A stretch of 64,000 nucleotides of DNA, taken from the NCBI GenBank assembly GCA_028714875.1, contig JAQTLN010000001.1:186001-250000 (forward strand), read 5' to 3'. The stretch's first letter is position 1, and each line of letters starts with the position of its first letter. The translations under genes were made by a program, and so were the position numbers. This DNA is from Gallionellaceae bacterium. Lineage in GTDB: Bacteria; Pseudomonadota; Gammaproteobacteria; Burkholderiales; Thiobacillaceae. Positions 15,082 through 62,152 of this stretch are shown one piece after another. The notes beneath the pieces were generated by a model. It saw only the letters and a list, made by a program, of their open reading frames with translations. It did no database searches and was not told the DNA's origin.

Positions 15082-15350
15082 TATAGGCGGGCAGGGAGCG
15101 CGAATCCCCCGATTGCAACGCACAAGCGACTTTCCAACCGAGCTTGCAAGTAGTATTCGGGGTTTACCAGCACCATTGCTGCCTGACAGCAATTGGCGAA
15201 GCTGGATAATGGTCAAGGCGCTGTTCGTGGAATTGCCCTTAAGTAAAACTTTGGACTGCCGATAAGGGCTTCTGGACCCAGAATCTTCGGAGGGAAACGC
15301 GAAATGCAAGCCCAGGTTTTTAGTATTCCCCCCCCGCCCCCCGCCCCCCG

Positions 15351-15381
15351 CATTTGGCATTTGGCATTTGGCATTTGGCAT
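15351..15381 (+). repeat. tandem heptamer CATTTGG, 4 copies plus CAT
   Basis: Four exact copies of CATTTGG and a partial fifth end six bases before the ATG at 15387, directly after a C-rich tract at 15328-15350. The array occupies the place of a ribosome binding site and promoter-proximal leader, so copy-number change could alter expression. Unit length equals that of the ATTTCGG arrays elsewhere in the window. Confidence 0.85.
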
Positions 15382-15386
15382 CTGAC

Positions 15387-16475
15387 ATGGCCTCGCCGGA
15401 AACTATCCTCATGGTTGACGACGACCCAGGCAACCTGGGCATTCTCGGCCGGCTGCTGAACCCGTATTACCACGTCCTGGCCGCCCCTTCCGGGGAGCGC
15501 GCTTTGCAGATCGCCGCCGGCACGCCGAAGCCGGACCTGATCCTGCTCGACGTGATGATGCCGGGCATGAGCGGTTACACGGTGCTCGACCATCTGCGCG
15601 AAAACCCGGCAACCCGCGAGATTCCGGTGATCTTCGTCACCGGCATGGATAGCGATGACGACGAGGCCGAAGGCCTACGCATCGGCGCTGCCGACTACAT
15701 CACCAAACCCTACAGCCCGGCCATCGTCCTGGCGCGGGTGCGGACCCAACTCGAACTCAAGTGCACCCGCGACTGGTTGCGCGACCAGAACGCCTGGCTG
15801 GAGGACGAGGTGGCACGACGCATGCGGGACGTCCTGCTGGTGCAGGACATCACCATCAACGCGCTGGCCGAACTCGCCGAAACGCGGGACAACGAAACCG
15901 GCAACCACATCCGCCGCACCCAGGAATACGTCCGCATCCTGGCGCAACGCCTGCAAACGCACCCCCGCTATTCCAGTTACCTGACCGACAAGACCATCGA
16001 ACTGCTGGCCAAATCCGCCCCGCTGCATGACATCGGCAAGGTCGGCATCCCCGACCATATCCTACTCAAGCCCGGCAAATTGACGGCGGCGGAGTGGGCC
16101 GTCATGCAGACTCATAGCCTGCTGGGCGCCCGCGCCATCGAACGGGCAGTGCGCAATGCCGACGCCCGCATCGACTTTCTCGACATGGCGAAGCAGATCG
16201 CCCATTTCCACCATGAAAAATGGGATGGCAGCGGCTATCCGGAGGGGCTGAAAGGGGAAGCTATCCCGATCCCGGCGCGTCTGATGGCCCTGGCCGACGT
16301 GTTCGATGCCCTGATCTCGCGGCGCGTTTACAAACCCCCGATGCCGATTGAAGAGGCGCGGGACATCATCATCGGCGAGCGAGGCAGCCATTTTGATCCC
16401 GATGTCGTGGCTGCCTTCCTCGCCGATTCCGATGCATTTCTGGTCGTGGCCGAACAATATCGTGAGCCGTCCTGA
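15387..16475 (+). CDS. response regulator with HD-GYP phosphodiesterase domain (RpfG-like)
   Basis: 362 residues from ATG 15387; an in-frame TTG at 15354 would translate the heptamer array. The receiver domain (ILMVDDDPGN; phospho-acceptor Asp in LILLDVMMPG; K in ITKPYSPA) spans about 1-125. The HD-GYP domain has ETGNHIRRTQEY, HDIGKVGIPDHILLKPG and HHEKWDGSGYPEGLKGE, so the metal-binding and GYP residues are present and c-di-GMP hydrolysis is expected. The hybrid kinase 38 bases downstream is the obvious partner, as in RpfG/RpfC pairs. The gene lies inside the putative integrative element. No ribosome binding site is visible apart from the repeat array. Confidence 0.93.
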   Translation: MASPETILMVDDDPGNLGILGRLLNPYYHVLAAPSGERALQIAAGTPKPDLILLDVMMPGMSGYTVLDHLRENPATREIPVIFVTGMDSDDDEAEGLRIGAADYITKPYSPAIVLARVRTQLELKCTRDWLRDQNAWLEDEVARRMRDVLLVQDITINALAELAETRDNETGNHIRRTQEYVRILAQRLQTHPRYSSYLTDKTIELLAKSAPLHDIGKVGIPDHILLKPGKLTAAEWAVMQTHSLLGARAIERAVRNADARIDFLDMAKQIAHFHHEKWDGSGYPEGLKGEAIPIPARLMALADVFDALISRRVYKPPMPIEEARDIIIGERGSHFDPDVVAAFLADSDAFLVVAEQYREPS

Positions 16476-38310: not shown

Positions 38311-39969
38311 ATGGCGAACATTCTTCCCGATGGTTGGCGGGCGCTGGAGGTCACCGGCGCGGCGGCGCGCGAGATCGAGACGCTGTCCACGCTGGCGGCG
38401 GCTTTGCCGGACGCTTACACCGTTTACCACGCGGTGCATTGGACGCATCTGGAACACGGTTTCTCGGTGTATGGCGAAATCGATTTCGTGGTGGTCAACC
38501 CGGCCGGCGATGTGCTGTTGATCGAGCAGAAGAGCGGTTTCCTGATCGAGACGCCGGAAGGTTTGGTCAAGCGCTACGCGGAAAAGGAAAAGCGCGTGGC
38601 CGTGCAGATGGCGCGTAGCGTTTCCGCCCTGCGCGCCAAGTTGCATGCGCGCCCCGGCTGCCAGGCGGCGCATGTGGACTATCTGCTGTATTGCCCGGAT
38701 TACACGGTGCGCCAGGTGGAGACGGCGGGCATCGCGCCGCAGCGCATCGTCGATGCGCGGCGCAAGGCACAACTGGCTGCACTCATCCAGAGCATCCTTC
38801 CCGATGGCGAACGCGCGCCCCAGGCCACGGAAGTGCACCGCTTCCTGCGCGGGGTGTTGCAACTGGAAACCGATGTCACCGCCCTGGTCGGCCGCGCGCG
38901 GGCTTTGGTCACCCGGGTATCCGGCGGCCTCGCGCACTGGGCGCGACAACTGGAGTTCACGCCGCACCGTTTGCGGGTGACCGGCACCGCCGGGTCCGGC
39001 AAGACCCAGTTGGCGCTGGCTGAATTCACCGCCGCCCTTGATCGTGGGCAGCGCCCGCTTTATGTCTGCTACAACCGGCCGCTGGCGGACCACTTCGCGC
39101 GCATCGTCGCGCCTCTCGGTGCGTCCGACGGTTGGGTGGGCACGTTTCATATGTTGTGCGACCAACGCCTGCGCGAGCAGGGCAGCGTCCCCGATTTCAC
39201 CCAGCCCGACGCTTTCGAGCGGTTGGTCGAGCAGGCGGCGGCCTTGCCGCTGGGCGTGGCCTGGCAGTTCGATTGCGTGATCATCGACGAAGGTCAGGAT
39301 TTCACGGAAGCCTGGCGCGACCAGGTGCTGCGTCATGCGCGCCCGGATGCGCGCCTGCTCTGGCTGGAAGACCCGTTGCAGAACCTCTACGGCCGCGCGC
39401 CGGTGCCGCTGCCGGGCTGGGTGACGCTGCACGCGCGTGGCAACTACCGCAGCCCACGCCCGGTGGTGCGCTTCCTGCAAGCGCTATTGCCGGAAGGAGC
39501 CGCGATAGACGCGGCGGGACCGCTCGGCGCGGGGGGGCTGGAGGTGCTGGTGTATCGCGACGCGGCGGAATTGAAGGAGCGGGTGAAGGAGGCGATCCGC
39601 CTGTGCTACGGCGCCGGCTACAAGCGCGACGATCTGGCGCTGCTGAGTTTTCGCGGACGCGAGCAATCGCTGCTGTTTCCCTATAGCCAATTGGGGCCGC
39701 ATACCTTGAGAACCTTCACCGGCCGTTATGACCTGTTCGGCCATCCGCTGTTTTCCGAGGGCGATGTGCTGTTGGAGACGGTCTACCGCTTCAAGGGCCA
39801 GTCGGCGGCCGCCGTGGTATTCGCGGAAATAGACTTCGAGACGCTGGACGAGAAAGCACTGCGCAAGCTGTTCGTCGGCGCCACCCGCGCCATGATGCTG
39901 CTGGTGCTGGTGGTGTCGGAACGGGCGGCGGAGCAATTTCGGATTGCGGATTGCGGATTTCGGATTTGA
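38311..39969 (+). CDS. NERD-domain superfamily I helicase-like protein
   Basis: 552 residues from ATG 38311. The N-terminal 150 residues form a NERD nuclease-related domain (EIDFVVVNPAGDVLLIEQKS, with the Asp, Glu and Lys of a restriction-like core). A UvrD-like ATPase follows: Walker A GTAGSGKTQLALAEF, VIIDEGQDF as motif II, and VYRFKGQSAAAVVF and LFVGATRAM near the end. Such fusions occur in DNA repair and in phage defence; no partner gene is adjacent, so the role is open. The last nine residues (RIADCGFRI) come from an intruding heptamer array, so the native C-terminus may have been altered. Confidence 0.88.
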   Translation: MANILPDGWRALEVTGAAAREIETLSTLAAALPDAYTVYHAVHWTHLEHGFSVYGEIDFVVVNPAGDVLLIEQKSGFLIETPEGLVKRYAEKEKRVAVQMARSVSALRAKLHARPGCQAAHVDYLLYCPDYTVRQVETAGIAPQRIVDARRKAQLAALIQSILPDGERAPQATEVHRFLRGVLQLETDVTALVGRARALVTRVSGGLAHWARQLEFTPHRLRVTGTAGSGKTQLALAEFTAALDRGQRPLYVCYNRPLADHFARIVAPLGASDGWVGTFHMLCDQRLREQGSVPDFTQPDAFERLVEQAAALPLGVAWQFDCVIIDEGQDFTEAWRDQVLRHARPDARLLWLEDPLQNLYGRAPVPLPGWVTLHARGNYRSPRPVVRFLQALLPEGAAIDAAGPLGAGGLEVLVYRDAAELKERVKEAIRLCYGAGYKRDDLALLSFRGREQSLLFPYSQLGPHTLRTFTGRYDLFGHPLFSEGDVLLETVYRFKGQSAAAVVFAEIDFETLDEKALRKLFVGATRAMMLLVLVVSERAAEQFRIADCGFRI

Positions 39970-40026
39970 TATATGCGCGCTTGCGCGCGTCCGAAATCCG
40001 AAATCCGAAATCCGAAATCCGAAATC
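39936..40026 (+). repeat. heptamer-array hairpin element (site A)
   Basis: Left arm of ATTTCGG-type heptamers (39936-39967), centre with GCGCGCTTGCGCGC, right arm of CCGAAAT heptamers (39991-40026). The arms are complementary, so the whole forms a long hairpin between two convergent genes, where it can act as a bidirectional terminator. Its left arm supplies the last codons and stop region of the helicase gene. Confidence 0.9.
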
Positions 40027-51442: not shown

Positions 51443-52252
51443 CTACGTGGCGGTCCGCAGCACGGTGGCTATCTTGTCGCGGCTCACCGGCTTTTCCAGC
51501 ACCCCGGCGAAGCCCGCCGCGCGCGCCTCGTCGAGAATCGCCTGCTGCACATTGGCGGTGAGCAGGATGCAACACGGGTCGAGGCCGACCGCGCGCAGCT
51601 TGCGGGCGATCTCCACGCCATTGCAGTCGGGCATGTTGTAGTCGAGGAAAACCACATCCGGCCGGACTTCCCGCGCCACCCGCAACGCGCTTTCGGCATC
51701 CTCAGCCTCGTGCACGACGTGCCCGCTGTCCGCCGGCATATGGATGCGGAACAGCAGGCGCGAGGTGGAGGAATCATCCACCACCAGCAGGACCAGCGGC
51801 CGTTCGCCGAGCGCGCAGGGAGAGAGCTCGTCCAGGCTGGCGCGCTGCATCAGGGTCTGCATGCTGTTGAGCATCTCGCGCATCGGCATCTCCGGTTGGT
51901 CTCCGGCGAGGAGTTCGATCAACGGTGTCTTGCGGCACTGCTCCACCAGCGCGGTGACCGCCTGGGTGAGCAGCGCGTGGGTTTCCTCGTGCTGGCCGCC
52001 GCGCTTCAGGTGGCGCAGCAGCCGCGCGTAGCCCGCCACCACCCGGCTATAGTGTTCCAGCCAGGGCAGATCTACCGCGCGCGCGCCGCCGTGCAGGCTG
52101 TCGAATTCCTGATGCACCTGATCGTAGTCGCAGCCTTCCGGCCCCTGTTCCAGGCTGGCGAGCGCCCGCGCCAGGCGTTCTCGCGTCTCCTTGCAGAAGA
52201 CGTCCAGGAGCGCTTCACGCGACAGCGGGGGGTCTTGGGGTTGCGGCATCAT
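51443..52252 (-). CDS. Hpt-like/receiver response regulator
   Basis: 269 residues from ATG 52252, one base overlapping the cheB stop (TGATG) with AGGAG upstream. The N-terminal 135 residues are helical (LARALASLEQGPEGCDYDQV, FDSLHGGARAVDLPWLEHYS) and resemble an Hpt fold; the expected phosphate-accepting His would be in DSLHGGARAV. The C-terminal receiver has VVDDSSTSRLLF, Asp in VVFLDYNMPD and Lys in LEKPVSRDK. It may act as a phosphate sink or connector between CheA and the GGDEF and HD-GYP outputs. Confidence 0.85.
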   Translation of the reverse strand: MMPQPQDPPLSREALLDVFCKETRERLARALASLEQGPEGCDYDQVHQEFDSLHGGARAVDLPWLEHYSRVVAGYARLLRHLKRGGQHEETHALLTQAVTALVEQCRKTPLIELLAGDQPEMPMREMLNSMQTLMQRASLDELSPCALGERPLVLLVVDDSSTSRLLFRIHMPADSGHVVHEAEDAESALRVAREVRPDVVFLDYNMPDCNGVEIARKLRAVGLDPCCILLTANVQQAILDEARAAGFAGVLEKPVSRDKIATVLRTAT

Positions 52253-53295
52253 CAACTCCTTGCCAGTTCGATGAGATGGGTGGGAATACGCGCCAAAGGT
52301 ACCACCTGATCCACGCAGCCGGCGGCGCGCGCCGCGCCGGGCATGCCGTAGACCACGGAACTTTCCTCGTCCTGCGCGAAGACATGGCCGCCGGCCCGAT
52401 GCAGGGCGACCAGGCCGTCGCTGCCGTCCGAGCCCATGCCGGTGAAGATGCCGCCGATCGCGGTCGCGCCACAGCAGCGCGCCAGGGAATGGAATAGGGC
52501 GGTGGCGGAGGGCCGGAAACGTTCGACCGCCGGCTCCGAGGACAAGCGCGTATGCAGGCGGCCATCGTGGCGCGAGACTTCCAGATGGTGGGCATCCGGC
52601 GCGATATACACGGTGCCCGCCCGCAAGGGTTGGTTCGGCTTGGCCAGACACACCTCCAGCAGGGTTTGGCCGCGCAGCCAGTTCACCAGGCCGCCGACGA
52701 AACCGGGCGAGATGTGCTGCACCACCAGGAGCGGCAGCGGATAGCCGACGGGCATTCCCGCCAGCAGGGTGGAGAGCGCCTGTGGTCCGCCGGTGGACAG
52801 CGCCAATCCGACCACCTCATGGCGGGCGCCGGCGCGGCGTGGCGTCGGTGCCTGGAAGATCGCCGCGCTCGGCCGCGGAGGGCGCCGGCGCACCACTTTC
52901 ACCTCGGCCATCGCCCGCACCGTCTCCACCAGTTCGCGCCGTATCCGTTCGAAATCGGGGTGGCTCAGGCCGCGCGGCTTCTCGATCACCGCCAGCGCGC
53001 CTTCCTCGATGGCGCGGAAAGTGATGCGCAATTCCTCGTCGTCCACGCTGGAACTGATCACCACGATGGGCAGCGGCTGCGTCGCCATGATCATGCGCGT
53101 GGCTTCGAAGCCATCCATCACTGGCATGCGGATATCCATGGTCACCAGGTCCGGCTTCAACTCATGCGCCAGGGTCACCGCCTCGCGGCCATCGCGCGCG
53201 CGCCCGACCACCCGCATGTCCGGCTCGGCCTGGAAGATTCCCTTGAGCAGGGCGGCGACGACGTCGGAATCTTCGGTAATGAGGATGTTGATCAT
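52252..53295 (-). CDS. cheB: CheB-type methylesterase response regulator
   Basis: 347 residues. Receiver (NILITEDSDVVAALLKGIF; Asp in DLVTMDIRMPVMDG) about 1-120, linker to 165, then CheB methylesterase with the catalytic triad Ser in ALSTGGPQAL, His in VVQHISPGF and Asp in TGMGSDGSDGL. It demethylates MCP glutamates and so resets receptors, opposing the CheR encoded upstream. Its start overlaps the four-helix-bundle gene by 4 bases. Confidence 0.95.
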   Translation of the reverse strand: MINILITEDSDVVAALLKGIFQAEPDMRVVGRARDGREAVTLAHELKPDLVTMDIRMPVMDGFEATRMIMATQPLPIVVISSSVDDEELRITFRAIEEGALAVIEKPRGLSHPDFERIRRELVETVRAMAEVKVVRRRPPRPSAAIFQAPTPRRAGARHEVVGLALSTGGPQALSTLLAGMPVGYPLPLLVVQHISPGFVGGLVNWLRGQTLLEVCLAKPNQPLRAGTVYIAPDAHHLEVSRHDGRLHTRLSSEPAVERFRPSATALFHSLARCCGATAIGGIFTGMGSDGSDGLVALHRAGGHVFAQDEESSVVYGMPGAARAAGCVDQVVPLARIPTHLIELARS

Positions 53296-53684
53296 GCTGG
53301 CGATTTCGGATTTCGGATTTCGGATTTCGGATTTGCCTTTGATCGTGTGCTGCGGATGGTGGCGATGATGATCGCCAGCAGTTCATTGGCCTCCGCTTTC
53401 AAGGGGGCGATGGTGGCCAGAGGCAGGAGATTTGCCTCTTCCATCAACTCGAGCCAGTAAATACATTCATCCGCCTCTTCTTCCACGATACCCAGTTTGG
53501 CAAGGAACTCCGCCCGCGACCTGGCCCGGCAAGCCGCACGGTAATTCGCTCCCACCGCTGTCCCCGCCCGCATCACCTGACGCCCAATTACCGTGGAAGA
53601 CATGGATTTCGGCATCCCCTCCACCAACCGAATCACCGCCAAGGCAAACCGGCGTGTACGCAACTTCAACGTCTCTTTATCCAT
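53292..53684 (-). CDS. S23/IVS-type four-helix-bundle protein inside the chemosensory operon
   Basis: 130 residues. RRFALAVIRLVEGMPKS, VIGRQVMRAGTAVGANYR and LGIVEEEADECIYWLELMEE match the 23S rRNA intervening-sequence four-helix-bundle family (S23/TIGR02436), whose fold is shared with the Avd accessory protein of diversity-generating retroelements. The last 14 residues (ANPKSEIRNPKSPA) are encoded by the heptamer array at 53303-53334, and an oppositely oriented array lies 13 bases before its start. It interrupts the usual cheA-cheB junction and is coupled to cheB by a 4-base overlap. It is probably a late arrival with the repeats; a role in chemosensing is not expected from the family. Confidence 0.88.
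   Translation of the reverse strand: MDKETLKLRTRRFALAVIRLVEGMPKSMSSTVIGRQVMRAGTAVGANYRAACRARSRAEFLAKLGIVEEEADECIYWLELMEEANLLPLATIAPLKAEANELLAIIIATIRSTRSKANPKSEIRNPKSPA
53303..53334 (+). repeat. ATTTCGG heptamer array (site B, left of S23 gene)
   Basis: Four uninterrupted ATTTCGG units plus ATTT. It lies inside the 3' end of the four-helix-bundle gene. Oriented opposite to the array at 53697, so the two form inverted terminal arrays around the gene. Confidence 0.95.
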
Positions 53685-53696
53685 TCACCCTCCACT

Positions 53697-53746
53697 CCGA
53701 AATCCGAAATCCGAAATCCGAAATCCGAAATCCGAAATCCGAAATC
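53697..53746 (+). repeat. CCGAAAT heptamer array (site C, right of S23 gene)
   Basis: Seven CCGAAAT units end in C at 53746; the last bases also form part of the cheA stop codon (53745-53747). Inverted relative to site B. Confidence 0.95.
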
Positions 53747-55967
53747 ATAAGAGTTGCTCCACCACTTCCAGCAGTTCCCGTGTTTCGAAGCTGCTTTTCA
53801 CGACATAGGCGTCGGCGCGGACTTCCAGGCCGCGGCGACGGTGTTCCTCGCTGCCCAGCGAGGTGACGATGACGACCGGGAGATCGGCCAGGCGGGCGTC
53901 GCCGCGAATGCGGCGGGTGAGCTCGAAGCCATCCAGTTCGGGCATTTCCACATCCGTGATGAGTAGATCGAAGCTGCCGTTGTGCAGCGCTTCCCAGGCT
54001 TGCTCACCGTCGGCGGCGACTTGTACGCGGTAGCCGGCGTTTTCCAGGATGCTCTGTTCCAGAGTGCGGGTGGTGATGGAGTCGTCGGCGACCAGGATGC
54101 GCGGCGCCGGACGTGCTTCGGCATGAGTATGTGATACCACGCGGCCGCTGGCGCCCAGGGCGCTGGCGAGCAGGTCGGCCACCGCCAGCACCAGCAGGAT
54201 GTCGCCGTCGCGCCCGAGGGTGCCGCCGGCGATGTGGCGCACCGCGACCAGGGGCGGCGCCAGCGGTTTGACCACCATTTCGCGCTCGCCCAGGACGTGG
54301 TCGACGCGCAGCGCCACGCGCTGCCAGCCGCGCTGGATCACCACCACGCTGATGAGTTCGGCATAGTCGTCCAACGTGCCGCGTTGCCCGAGCAGGCTGG
54401 CCAGATCGCGCAGCGGCACCGGCGTGTCGTCCACCGTCACCGCCTGGCTGCCCGCTACCTCCAGAATCTGCGCCGGCGTCAGTTCCAGAATGCGTTGCAC
54501 ATACAGGCTGGGCAGGGCGAATACCTGGCCGGCCGCGCGCACCAGCAGGCCGTGGTCGCTGGCCAGGGTGAGCGGCAGGCAGAGGCGGAAGCGGGTGCCG
54601 CCGTTCAGTTCGGTATCCACCGCGATGCGACCGCCCAGGGCTTGCAGGTTCACCTGCACCACGTCCAGCCCGACGCCGCGCCCGGAGATCTCACTGACCT
54701 GGTCGCGGGTGCTGAAGCCGGGGCGGAACAGATAGTCGAGCAGGGCGCGCGAGGATAGGGCGGAGATTTCTTCCTCGCTGGCCAGGCCAAGCTCGCGAAT
54801 GCGGCCGCGCACCCGGGTGCTATCGACACCGGCGCCGTCGTCGGACACCGTGATCACCACCGACTGTCCTTCCCGCTCCAGACGCAGGGTGATCAGGCCG
54901 GTCTCCGCCTTGCCCATGAGGCGGCGCTGCGTCGGCGCCTCGATGCCATGGTCCACGGCATTGCGCAGCAGGTGGATGAGGGGGTCGCGCAAGGCATCCA
55001 GGATGGCGCGATCCATTTCCAGGCGTTCGCCCTCCAGCACCAGTTCCACACGCTTGCCCAGGTCGCGCGCCAGTTCTCGCACGGTCAGAACGAAGGGTTT
55101 GAGCACGCTCTCCGCCGGCACCATGCGCAGGTCGCGCACGTCCTCGCGCAGGCCGCTGGCCAGAGGGCGCAACTGCGCCACGGTGGCGCGCAGGCCGCGC
55201 TGCATGGAATCCGCCAGTCGCTCGATTTCCAGGATCAGATCGCTGGCCTCGACTAGCAGGTGGCGGTCCAGGGAAATATCGGATTTCGGATTTTGGCGAT
55301 TTCGGATTTCGGATTGCGGATTGCGGATGTGCTCTTGCGAGTTCAGTTGTTCCCAAAGCTGTTTCAGGCGTTGCGCCAGATCATGCTGGTGGCGGCTCGC
55401 CTGGTAATGGTCGTCGACGCGGATGTTGCTGGCCTGCAACTCTTCCGCCAGATCGGCGATGCGATCCAGACGCGCCACCGGCAGACGGATGGTGTCCGAC
55501 AGCGGCCGCGCCGACGTAGCCGCCGGGGTGGCCGCGCTCGCGGGGGGAGGCGCGGCGCCGGCGGCCACCGCGCGCACGCGTTGCAGGAGATCGGCGCTGG
55601 CCTGGCCGACGGGGGTGTCCGTCGCATCCGCCTCGGCCAGACCGCGCATCCCTTCCACCGCGGAGAGGCACAGCTCCACCAAACCCGGCTGGCTTGCCAC
55701 GGTCTCGCGCTTGAGCGCGGAGAACAGGTCTTCCAGGGCATGCGCCAGTTCCGCCACCCGTTCCAAGCCGACGCCGCGCGCCGCGCCCTTGATGTTGTGG
55801 GCGGCGCGAAAAATCGCGTCGAGGAGCTTCGCGCGCGCCTCGCCCGTGGCCCCCTGTTCCAGCGCCAGCAAACCATCGACGATGGCCTGCAGGCGTTCTT
55901 CGAGTTGGGCGCTGAAGGTTTGCAGCAGTTGCCGCATCAGGCGCGGGTCGATGTCGGAGCGGGGCAT
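53745..55967 (-). CDS. cheA: CheA histidine kinase with fused C-terminal receiver (WspE-like)
   Basis: 740 residues. Hpt domain with phospho-His 57 in IFRAAHNIKGAARGVG; dimerisation and HATPase (HLLRNAVDHGIEAP, VSDDGAGVD, SGRGVGLDVV); CheW-like domain (about 475-600); C-terminal receiver (ILVADDSITTRTLEQSILEN; Asp in LLITDVEMPELDG). No separate P2 domain is evident. At about residue 215-232 a short stretch IRNPQSEIRNRQNPKSD is encoded by a heptamer array in frame, inserted just before the dimerisation region. CheA is the core kinase of this pathway. Downstream it is followed by the four-helix-bundle gene rather than directly by cheB. Confidence 0.95.
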   Translation of the reverse strand: MPRSDIDPRLMRQLLQTFSAQLEERLQAIVDGLLALEQGATGEARAKLLDAIFRAAHNIKGAARGVGLERVAELAHALEDLFSALKRETVASQPGLVELCLSAVEGMRGLAEADATDTPVGQASADLLQRVRAVAAGAAPPPASAATPAATSARPLSDTIRLPVARLDRIADLAEELQASNIRVDDHYQASRHQHDLAQRLKQLWEQLNSQEHIRNPQSEIRNRQNPKSDISLDRHLLVEASDLILEIERLADSMQRGLRATVAQLRPLASGLREDVRDLRMVPAESVLKPFVLTVRELARDLGKRVELVLEGERLEMDRAILDALRDPLIHLLRNAVDHGIEAPTQRRLMGKAETGLITLRLEREGQSVVITVSDDGAGVDSTRVRGRIRELGLASEEEISALSSRALLDYLFRPGFSTRDQVSEISGRGVGLDVVQVNLQALGGRIAVDTELNGGTRFRLCLPLTLASDHGLLVRAAGQVFALPSLYVQRILELTPAQILEVAGSQAVTVDDTPVPLRDLASLLGQRGTLDDYAELISVVVIQRGWQRVALRVDHVLGEREMVVKPLAPPLVAVRHIAGGTLGRDGDILLVLAVADLLASALGASGRVVSHTHAEARPAPRILVADDSITTRTLEQSILENAGYRVQVAADGEQAWEALHNGSFDLLITDVEMPELDGFELTRRIRGDARLADLPVVIVTSLGSEEHRRRGLEVRADAYVVKSSFETRELLEVVEQLL
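55275..55328 (+). repeat. heptamer array inside cheA (site D)
   Basis: Degenerate ATTTCGG/ATTGCGG units lie wholly inside the cheA frame. Three heptamers equal seven codons, so the array stays open and encodes IRNPxSE-type repeats on the minus strand. It adds roughly 18 residues between Hpt linker and dimerisation domain. Confidence 0.85.
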
Positions 55968-55970
55968 TAG

Positions 55971-56067
55971 ATTTCGGATTTCGGATTGCGGATTTCGGAT
56001 GTGGGGTGCGCGCTTGCGCGCGCCCTGCGGGTTTCAAATCCGAAATCCGAAATCCGAAATCCGAAAT
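55971..56067 (+). repeat. heptamer-array hairpin element (site E)
   Basis: ATTTCGG-type arm (55971-56000), centre with GCGCGCTTGCGCGCGC, CCGAAAT arm (about 56036-56067). Same architecture as sites A and F. It separates the NIT-domain MCP gene from cheA on the same strand, where a strong hairpin could lower cheA expression. Confidence 0.9.
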
Positions 56068-60339: not shown

Positions 60340-60436
60340 ATTTCGGATTTCGGATTTCGGATGTCGGATGTGGAAGGTTTGGCGCGGCGCAGCCGCGCGA
60401 GGAAAAATCCGAATTTCGAAATCCGACATCCGAAAT
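60340..60436 (+). repeat. heptamer-array hairpin element (site F)
   Basis: ATTTCGG arm (60340-60371, with GATGTCGG variants), centre with GCGCGGCGCAGCCGCGC, and a complementary arm with GACATCC variants (about 60407-60436). The variant units occur in matching positions in both arms, so the two arms diverged together. It lies between the HD-GYP and globin-MCP genes. Confidence 0.88.
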
Positions 60437-61520: not shown

Positions 61521-62152
61521 GAGTGTTCCTCGATCCTGATTCGCGGGTGGCCCAGCAGGGCTTCCAGATCCAGCATGGCCAATCGGCCGGCATGAATGCC
61601 GGTAATCCAGTTTTCTTCACCGGCGGCGGCGCCGGGTAGGGTGGGGCCGAGCGACTCGGGCCGATAGCGGTCGTTGCCCAGCACCTCGGCCACGCGCAGG
61701 CCGACGCTATAGCCGGCGGCGCTGACCATCACCAGCCGGGTTTCTTCGCAGTTCTCGCCACTTTCCGCGTTTCCCGCCTCATTTCCCACCTCATTTCCCA
61801 CCACGCGCAGGAGGCGCGCCAGGTCGAGCACGGCAAGCAGTTGGCCGCGCCGCGGCATCACGCCGGCGACGAAAGAGGGCGTGCCGGGTACCGGGGTAAG
61901 GCCGCGCGGCCGCACGATTTCATCCAGCCAGCGATAGGGAATGCCGTAGTGTTCCCGCGCGCCCAGCCGCACCGCGAGAAACAGGTCACCGCGCGGTGTC
62001 TTCCTGGCCTGGTCGGTTTCGCTCGCCAGGCGTACCGCGCGGCGATGCAGGACGGCGCGAGCGTGGGGGGAGTCTGGAATTTCGGATTTCGGATTTCGGA
62101 TTTCGGATGTGCCGATTTCGGATTTCGGATTTCGGATTTCGGACGTGGTCAT
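61517..62152 (-). CDS. cheW: CheW-like coupling protein with repeat-encoded N-terminus
   Basis: 211 residues from ATG 62152, overlapping the cheR stop by 4 bases; the open frame runs on upstream but is not protein-like there. The first 26 residues (MTTSEIRNPKSEIGTSEIRN and on) are encoded by the heptamer array at 62079-62141. The rest is a CheW fold: FLAVRLGAREHYGIPYRWLD, FVAGVMPRRGQLLAVLDLAR, ITGIHAGRLAMLDLEALL. CheW couples MCPs to CheA. With two CheW genes in the cluster the layout resembles WspB/WspD. The extended N-terminus is unusual and may be disordered. Confidence 0.88.
   Translation of the reverse strand: MTTSEIRNPKSEIGTSEIRNPKSEIPDSPHARAVLHRRAVRLASETDQARKTPRGDLFLAVRLGAREHYGIPYRWLDEIVRPRGLTPVPGTPSFVAGVMPRRGQLLAVLDLARLLRVVGNEVGNEAGNAESGENCEETRLVMVSAAGYSVGLRVAEVLGNDRYRPESLGPTLPGAAAGEENWITGIHAGRLAMLDLEALLGHPRIRIEEHS
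62079..62141 (+). repeat. heptamer array at the start of cheW (site G)
   Basis: ATTTCGG units in two runs split by GTGCCG, all in one orientation, with no complementary arm. The array begins about 11 bases inside the cheW start and stays in frame. Confidence 0.93.

Follow-up and report, generated by a model that had tools for sequence, protein, structure and literature searches.

S23-family genes within bacterial operons often lie between inverted arrays of heptamer repeats

Small genes of the S23 family have long been known as parts of inserts in rRNA genes. In many kinds of bacteria they often sit within operons, inside mirror-image arrays of a 7-base repeat. The 7-base step is mostly constant, while the sequence of the repeat differs between hosts. 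The unit found at the cheA-cheB junction of a Gallionellaceae bacterium, in the 64,000-nucleotide stretch of DNA analysed here (the window), is one case of this general pattern. The unit and the genes on either side of it are:

52252..53295, minus strand: cheB, with receiver and methylesterase domains (ORF list, profiles)
53292..53684, minus strand: S23/IVS-family four-helix-bundle gene of 130 amino acids (ORF list, profile matches, structure model)
53302..53334, plus strand: arm 1, (ATTTCGG)n, 4.7 units, G-rich strand directed at the S23 gene (array scan)
53696..53746, plus strand: arm 2, (CCGAAAT)n, 7.3 units, reverse complement of arm 1, overlapping the cheA stop codon (array scan)
53745..55967, minus strand: cheA-type kinase with Hpt, HATPase, CheW and receiver domains (ORF list, profiles)

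The first-pass annotation had described an S23-type gene at the cheA-cheB junction, enclosed by facing arrays of (ATTTCGG)n and (CCGAAAT)n, and coordinates and profile searches confirm this. The S23 gene, which is the only gene of the unit and lies outside any 23S rRNA gene, has the same direction as cheA and cheB. The sequence ATGA contains both its stop, TGA, and the cheB start, ATG, in overlap, and the C-terminal tail of the encoded protein is a translation through the arm 1 array. The protein belongs to the S23 / TIGR02436 / PF05635 (23S-IVS) proteins, with scores above the curated cut-off for both profiles (81 bits, E 6.5e-23, cut-off 24 for TIGR02436; 60.1 bits, cut-off 33.8 for PF05635). 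A structure model of residues 1-123 (pLDDT 94.8) has the four-helix-bundle fold, and its top structural matches in Foldseek are 2rld and 2gsc (E 6e-7 to 3e-3), solved entries with 5 chains each; the S23 protein of X. campestris is a homopentamer, as cited in PMC4990558. A two-unit heptamer probe allowing at most one mismatch matched the window 35 times, compared with 0.05 times on average in shuffled sequence. RNA folding predicts for the operon-sense transcript of the unit an uninterrupted 33-bp stem, formed near the ends by the two arms, that closes a loop holding the S23 ORF (-194.4 kcal/mol, z -3.6).

The sample for the general pattern consisted of 153 S23 loci, 27 from a search of relatives, 46 from a phylum search and 80 named GTDB loci. 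The relatives search gave 36 matches, 30 of them with loci, from which the partial L047, L048 and L059 were left out. The phylum set comprises 26 of 29 new loci plus 20 that were fetched; L109 and L117, which have arrays, and L114, which has none, were left out. The named loci are the top 80 from the relatives of one subfamily, A2, which number at least 591. Since L140 equals L036 and L184 equals L053, the 153 loci represent 151 distinct places. At a threshold score of 14 or more, 95 period-7 arrays were located within 100 bp of the S23 gene and 34 further out, corresponding to 2.08 versus 0.074 arrays per kb, a 28-fold difference (45.6 kb near the genes, taken over 150 bp per side, and 460 kb further out). 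Periods 14, 8 and 9 were also enriched (near/distant counts 28/6, 9/2 and 5/2); each remaining period gave at most one array near the gene, with period 12 at 0 near and 6 distant.

A proximal period-7 or period-14 array was present at 85 of the 153 S23 loci (46 of them among the 80 named loci), as compared to none of 30 ParE toxin loci drawn from the phylum sample, the one control family used (Fisher 8e-10), and to 6 of 85 other ORFs of the S23 loci (Fisher 6e-15); these P-values treat the loci as more independent than they are, because many are related and kin were not collapsed. S23 genes thus have arrays beside them far more often than the controls, a comparison that the first-pass annotation had suggested, and the low counts of both controls indicate that S23 flanks are not merely intergenic DNA like any other. 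The other 68 loci fell below the threshold, with degenerate arrays in some and no arrays in others. When both flanks were combined and the best period was determined for 180 loci (the sample plus 17 chosen loci of the order of G286 and 10 plasmid loci), period 7 was found in 87, 14 in 23, 8 in 7 and 9 in 2; the remaining 61 were under the threshold, no other period occurred, and shuffled sequences gave 0. The array rule was passed by 11 of the 17 extra loci. Arrays beside S23 genes occur in named records titled Planctomycetales, Clostridiales, Chloroflexia, Acidobacteria, Elusimicrobia, Peregrinibacteria and Omnitrophica.

The arms are inverted and have a constant polarity. Period-7 arrays flank the gene on either side at 23 loci, and at 20 of these the two units were reverse complements within one mismatch, versus a mean of 1.9 and a maximum of 7 in 2000 shuffles. 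A test that makes no use of periodicity, covering 150 chromosomal loci with sufficiently long flanks and 10 plasmid loci, found an inverted repeat between the upstream and downstream flanks above the 95th percentile of mis-paired flanks at 119 of 160 loci; direct repeats reached it at 15 of 160. The upstream unit was G-rich in 33 of 36 cases and the downstream unit C-rich in 51 of 56. Octamer arrays were observed in the S23 group of L104, L121 and L129, with traces at L112; as this group spans several genomes, the array period seems to be a trait of the S23 clade.

S23 genes are mostly co-directional with the operon genes between which they lie. Neighbours were assigned by mechanical ORF calling, which was possible on both sides at 110 of the 153 loci. 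Both neighbours pointed along the S23 gene at 82 of these, both against it at 6, and the remaining 22 were mixed (binomial 4e-18 for 82 versus 6, again with related loci counted separately). Junctions identified by profile include guaB|guaA, cysD|cysN, sdhA|sdhB, ahcY|metF, glyA|nrdR, carA|carB, dnaK|dnaJ, nuoC|nuoD and yebC|ruvC. Further S23 genes lie between a GDP-mannose dehydratase gene and an epimerase-family gene, and between an epimerase-family and an RmlD-type gene. At L334 accC was recognised downstream by profile, while the accB side was read by eye, with no family at that threshold. The arrays vary among these junctions: L033 (guaB|guaA) has the inverted repeat and no period-7 arrays, at L110 (cysD|cysN) only one of the two flanks has an array, and L155 (sdhA|sdhB) has neither an inverted repeat nor a period-7 or -14 array. 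A second cheA|cheB junction, L045 (G047:C26), belongs to a different family and carries an S23 protein of 21% identity with another heptamer.

With the protein of L041 as query, S23 matches were found in none of 50,697 phage records and in 24 of 72,556 plasmid records, mostly cyanobacterial. Two examples from cyanobacterial plasmids are S23 genes flanked by nrdB and nrdA, and by cas6 and cas4. Loci were fetched from 10 of the 24 records, and 7 of the 10 passed the array rule; the exceptions have arrays further out (L245), only a weak one (L247) or no period 7 (L241). At L246 two arrays are both in one direction. Seven of the ten genes run along both neighbours and three are opposed to both (L240, L241, L247). 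An rRNA gene as the usual place of S23 genes was also considered and rejected: 20 of the 80 named loci were scanned and none had an Rfam match at gathering scores. Of these 20 loci, 19 have no proximal array and L147 has one of period 9.

The closest known system is the intervening sequence (IVS) in helix 45 of the 23S rRNA of Coxiella burnetii. Upstream of an S23 ORF it carries tandem GACAGAT heptamers, three copies or, in some strains, two; its ends form a 28-bp terminal stem, and RNase III, whose excision of the IVS was shown in vitro, cleaves at the first repeat. Production of the S23 protein in vivo was considered unlikely (PMC4990558). The window unit shares with it an S23 ORF within terminal inverted repeats and tandem heptamers of variable copy number just upstream of that ORF. 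Unlike the Coxiella element as described there, the units reported here lie between protein-coding genes, have many heptamer sequences, often on both sides, and occur along with dispersed gene-less pairs. Because of the common anatomy we read the window unit as an IVS-type element of operon junctions, and consider it probable that arrays and S23 gene together form one stem-forming element of this type. By analogy to Coxiella, RNase III may cut the arm stem, which would allow the host to accommodate the insert at a cistron boundary or within an rRNA helix. With its heptamers before the S23 ORF and its terminal stem, the rRNA IVS in turn looks like a special case of a larger class.

Four S23-flanking heptamers were used as three-unit probes, counting matches beside the S23 gene as well. 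The window heptamer, (CCGAAAT)3, gave 132 matches in the window's own genome (4.08 Mb; overlapping registers counted separately), versus 0 for the reversed control, 123 in G011, 96 in G017, 67 in G012 and 0 in the other 16 genomes. (GGGGAGT)3 gave 44 in G031, 1 in each of two genomes and 0 in the other 17; it is the least clean probe, because its read-backwards control gave 1-11 matches in seven genomes. (GTAGGCA)3 gave 65 in G216, 43 in G115, 27 in G131, 17 in G111, 11 in G033, 1 in each of two genomes and 0 in the other 13; G033 is exceptional in that its S23 gene is flanked by GAAGGGG. (GCGAATA)3 gave 31 in G230, 23 in G228, 4-10 in five others and 0 in eight. In agreement with the earlier suggestion of a repeat family, the heptamer varies with lineage and paralog, and the four that were probed are dispersed through host genomes.

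Paralogs within one genome may have different repeats. The three full-length S23 matches of G111 each come with an array of another type, AGTGAGT, the octamer GTAGGGCA or GTAGGCA, above threshold on one side, and the octamer was found again in orthologs from other genomes. The six S23 matches of G404, all of which were read, also have differing repeats, with a clear array on one side only at L305 and only weak arrays at L340 and L341. Orthologs at nuoC|nuoD, read by eye, have arms of AGTGAGT type (L099, L101, L108), GCGAATA type (L107) or GGCAGTC type (L217), alike on both sides at every locus; only L217 exceeds the array threshold on both sides, and the inverted-repeat scores are 28-64 (cut 23). 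At yebC|ruvC the arms are GAGGNGT variants. As orthologs at these two junctions differ in heptamer, both arms apparently change jointly while the gene is kept.

The own genome has a single TIGR02436 gene (profile search). The window contains these further arrays:

39936..40026, no strand: gene-less inverted pair enclosing a GC-rich hairpin (array scan, sequence reading)
55276..55328, minus strand: single array, in frame within cheA (probe, array scan, ORF list)
55970..56067, no strand: gene-less inverted pair enclosing a GC-rich hairpin, at the cheA start (array scan, sequence reading)
60340..60436, no strand: gene-less inverted pair enclosing a GC-rich hairpin (array scan, sequence reading)
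62079..62147, no strand: two same-direction ATTTCGG arrays forming a 36-bp direct repeat (array scan)

The three gene-less inverted units that had been proposed are real, and the arrays at 55276-55328 and 62079-62147 are not inverted pairs. The in-frame cheA array differs in length and sequence among the relatives G006, G011, G013 and G017. A second heptamer type, (GCATTTG)n beside (CCCCCCG)3, is located at 15330-15388 and overlaps the start of a response-regulator-like ORF. We inspected six array places in the window and a further 17 in 16 stretches retrieved from the same genome; of these 23, 16 are convergent pairs and 7 are not inverted pairs. In all 16 pairs the G-rich strand points inward; one is the S23 unit and 15 are gene-less, with a GC-rich hairpin in several of the gene-less spacers and none in others. 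Gene-less facing pairs of the same polarity were also present in all four stretches of genus g133, which were chosen because the match listing showed facing probe matches, and their spacers are unrelated to those of the window.

The first-pass annotation had regarded the array-gene-array unit as a possible autonomous parent and the gene-less units as its derivatives. The descent of gene-less from gene-bearing units is not borne out, given the one S23 gene of the own genome, the many arrays in G011 and G017, which have no S23 match (profile search), and the unrelated spacers of g133. Nor did a comparison of the cheA-cheB site show movement of the unit. G012 has the whole unit there, with an S23 protein 92% identical and 86% DNA identity over unit and flanks. 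G017 and G011 have a left-arm remnant of about two units plus another palindrome; G022 and G006 have another palindrome and a right-side remnant, short enough to be host sequence in both, and G006 was read on the right side only, its left side being on another contig. G013 has another palindrome, and G010 lacks both the S23 gene and a clear array. In a partial-cheA tree, in which no branch reaches the strong-support mark, the own genome (G000) is not grouped with G012; because the two stand apart and species between them have array remnants, ancestral presence followed by losses is favoured, and the cheA-cheB copy looks vertically inherited within the genus and lost in several species. As to whether the gene might persist at this junction without arrays, none of the seven relatives read shows such a state, and only G012 has the gene at all. 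The cheA-cheB and cheA-MCP gaps of G006, G011, G012, G013, G017 and G022 hold other palindromes (CGTAGGTTGGGC..., GTGGGAGCGGGCTTGCCCGC..., GTAGCCCGGATGG... and a CCCCC-rich one), as if unrelated hairpin families were exchanged there.

These observations bear on the possibility of a mobile element acting at the DNA level, much as the annotation had suggested. The arrays would then be terminal inverted repeats, the unit would be mobilised by S23 or by a host enzyme that it recruits, and the gene-less pairs would be non-autonomous copies of it. It would account for probed heptamers that are lineage-specific and dispersed, and for a cheA-cheB junction without S23 gene or clear array in G010. It is also consistent with L039/L043 (glyA|nrdR) and L210 (dnaK|dnaJ), which have different neighbours while their S23 DNA is about 72% identical over -58 to +46 and the downstream heptamer is shared. 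A wider comparison of similar S23 proteins in differing contexts looked for flank homology in short stretches only and so overcounts changed neighbours; this case alone is drawn from it. We nevertheless think it unlikely: S23 matches no nuclease family in profile searches, no target-site duplication was seen by eye at the genus junctions in occupied, remnant and array-free states, no recent jump was found among the loci compared, and many S23 copies keep the same junction within genera. The strong co-orientation with neighbouring genes is moreover unexpected for neutral DNA insertion without selection. A candidate recent move, L091/L094, was rejected since both have the same two neighbours. 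In the one-contig genome G024 the S23 gene occurs twice (L137 and L346, G024:C1), each time in the same sequence context, identical over at least 3.3 kb; as both copies belong to one duplication, they are uninformative on transposition.

Dispersed heptamers have been described before, and heptamers are over-represented SSRs in bacteria (PMC4692102). The GGGAATC repeats of Xanthomonas and the GGGGA(C/T)T repeats of Nostoc are dispersed, G-rich and mostly intergenic, and 70 and 75 convergent pairs were counted in two Xanthomonas genomes (PMC4692102); the arrays described here share the dispersal, the G-rich heptamers and the convergent pairs, whereas the main text of that paper mentions neither S23 nor 'four helix'. 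Loci L334-L337 appear to be like Xanthomonas, since S23 lies beside accC and the CGGGATT-type repeats fit the published GGGANTN pattern. The TAACTGA repeats of Beggiatoaceae are likewise dispersed and mostly intergenic, but unlike the arrays here their sets are almost all direct (169 direct and one indirect in the genome described), and S23 and 'four helix' are absent from the text of PMC4679880. Such repeats may suggest ordinary intergenic tandem repeats, expanded by slippage in gaps where S23 genes are passengers, and the mostly intergenic position, the variable copy number and the general excess of heptamers agree with this. We regard it as very improbable in view of the ParE flanks and other ORFs, of paralogs within one genome that carry different repeats, and of the reverse-complement arms with constant polarity, as matched inverted arms are not made by slippage alone.

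The S23 fold resembles Avd of diversity-generating retroelements (DGRs), as had been noted earlier: the model matches 4dwl and 8ub7 with probability 1.00, E 0.02-0.07 and TM 0.71-0.73 (Foldseek), although some unrelated four-helix bundles of plant inhibitors have E-values as good, with lower TM (0.55-0.64). Copying via a reverse transcriptase with S23 acting like Avd, for which this predicted likeness speaks, appears highly improbable: unlike Avd in DGRs, the window S23 has no reverse transcriptase beside it, its neighbours being cheA and cheB, RVT_1 occurs in 12 of 39 S23-bearing versus 8 of 20 S23-free genomes (the latter all from the window's order, the former mostly not, so that taxonomy differs), and the one-contig genome G131 with its 27 GTAGGCA matches has no RVT_1. 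The only RVT_1 match of the own genome is on contig C4, the window being on C1. A reverse transcriptase as a general need was rejected, since 27 of the 39 S23-bearing genomes have no RVT_1 match, RVT_1 not covering every reverse transcriptase.

REP/REPIN and MITE elements are many small palindromic intergenic units per genome, which is similar to the present units; unlike these, the S23 units have arms of tandem heptamers of changing sequence and carry a four-helix-bundle gene. The cyanobacterial STRR repeats are dispersed G-rich heptamer arrays, mostly intergenic. Full-text searches of a PMC subset, outside which most subscription papers lie, gave no paper linking S23 genes with heptamer arrays. 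The annotation had named, as a finding against it, arrays throughout the genome with no association with S23 genes. Such a state half applies to the own genome and does not hold across genomes.

Returning to the IVS-type reading, the following mechanism may be envisaged. The S23 pentamer would recognise its own repeat by putative binding, and the protein would set the fixed step of 7, sometimes 8 or 9 bases. The gene-less pairs may then be stems that are recognised, copied or homogenised in trans. We tentatively suggest, as a possibility rather than an expectation, that stem elements form a widespread class whose sequences are recognised by S23 proteins, with the clade fixing the step and the repeat sequence turning over. 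S23 and its own repeat would spread and homogenise inverted arrays through the genome and make inserts tolerable in operon junctions and rRNA helices, and the heptamer excess of bacteria, including the cyanobacterial and Xanthomonas repeats, could largely be their footprint. To our knowledge S23 proteins have no known function, although their structures have been solved for years, and we know of no settled cause for the over-representation of heptamer repeats in bacteria. The link between S23 genes and arrays ties these two unexplained features of bacterial genomes together. For each S23 protein it predicts the sequence that would be recognised, namely the repeat at the gene's own flanks, and the rRNA IVS would find its place within a larger class of elements living in core operons.
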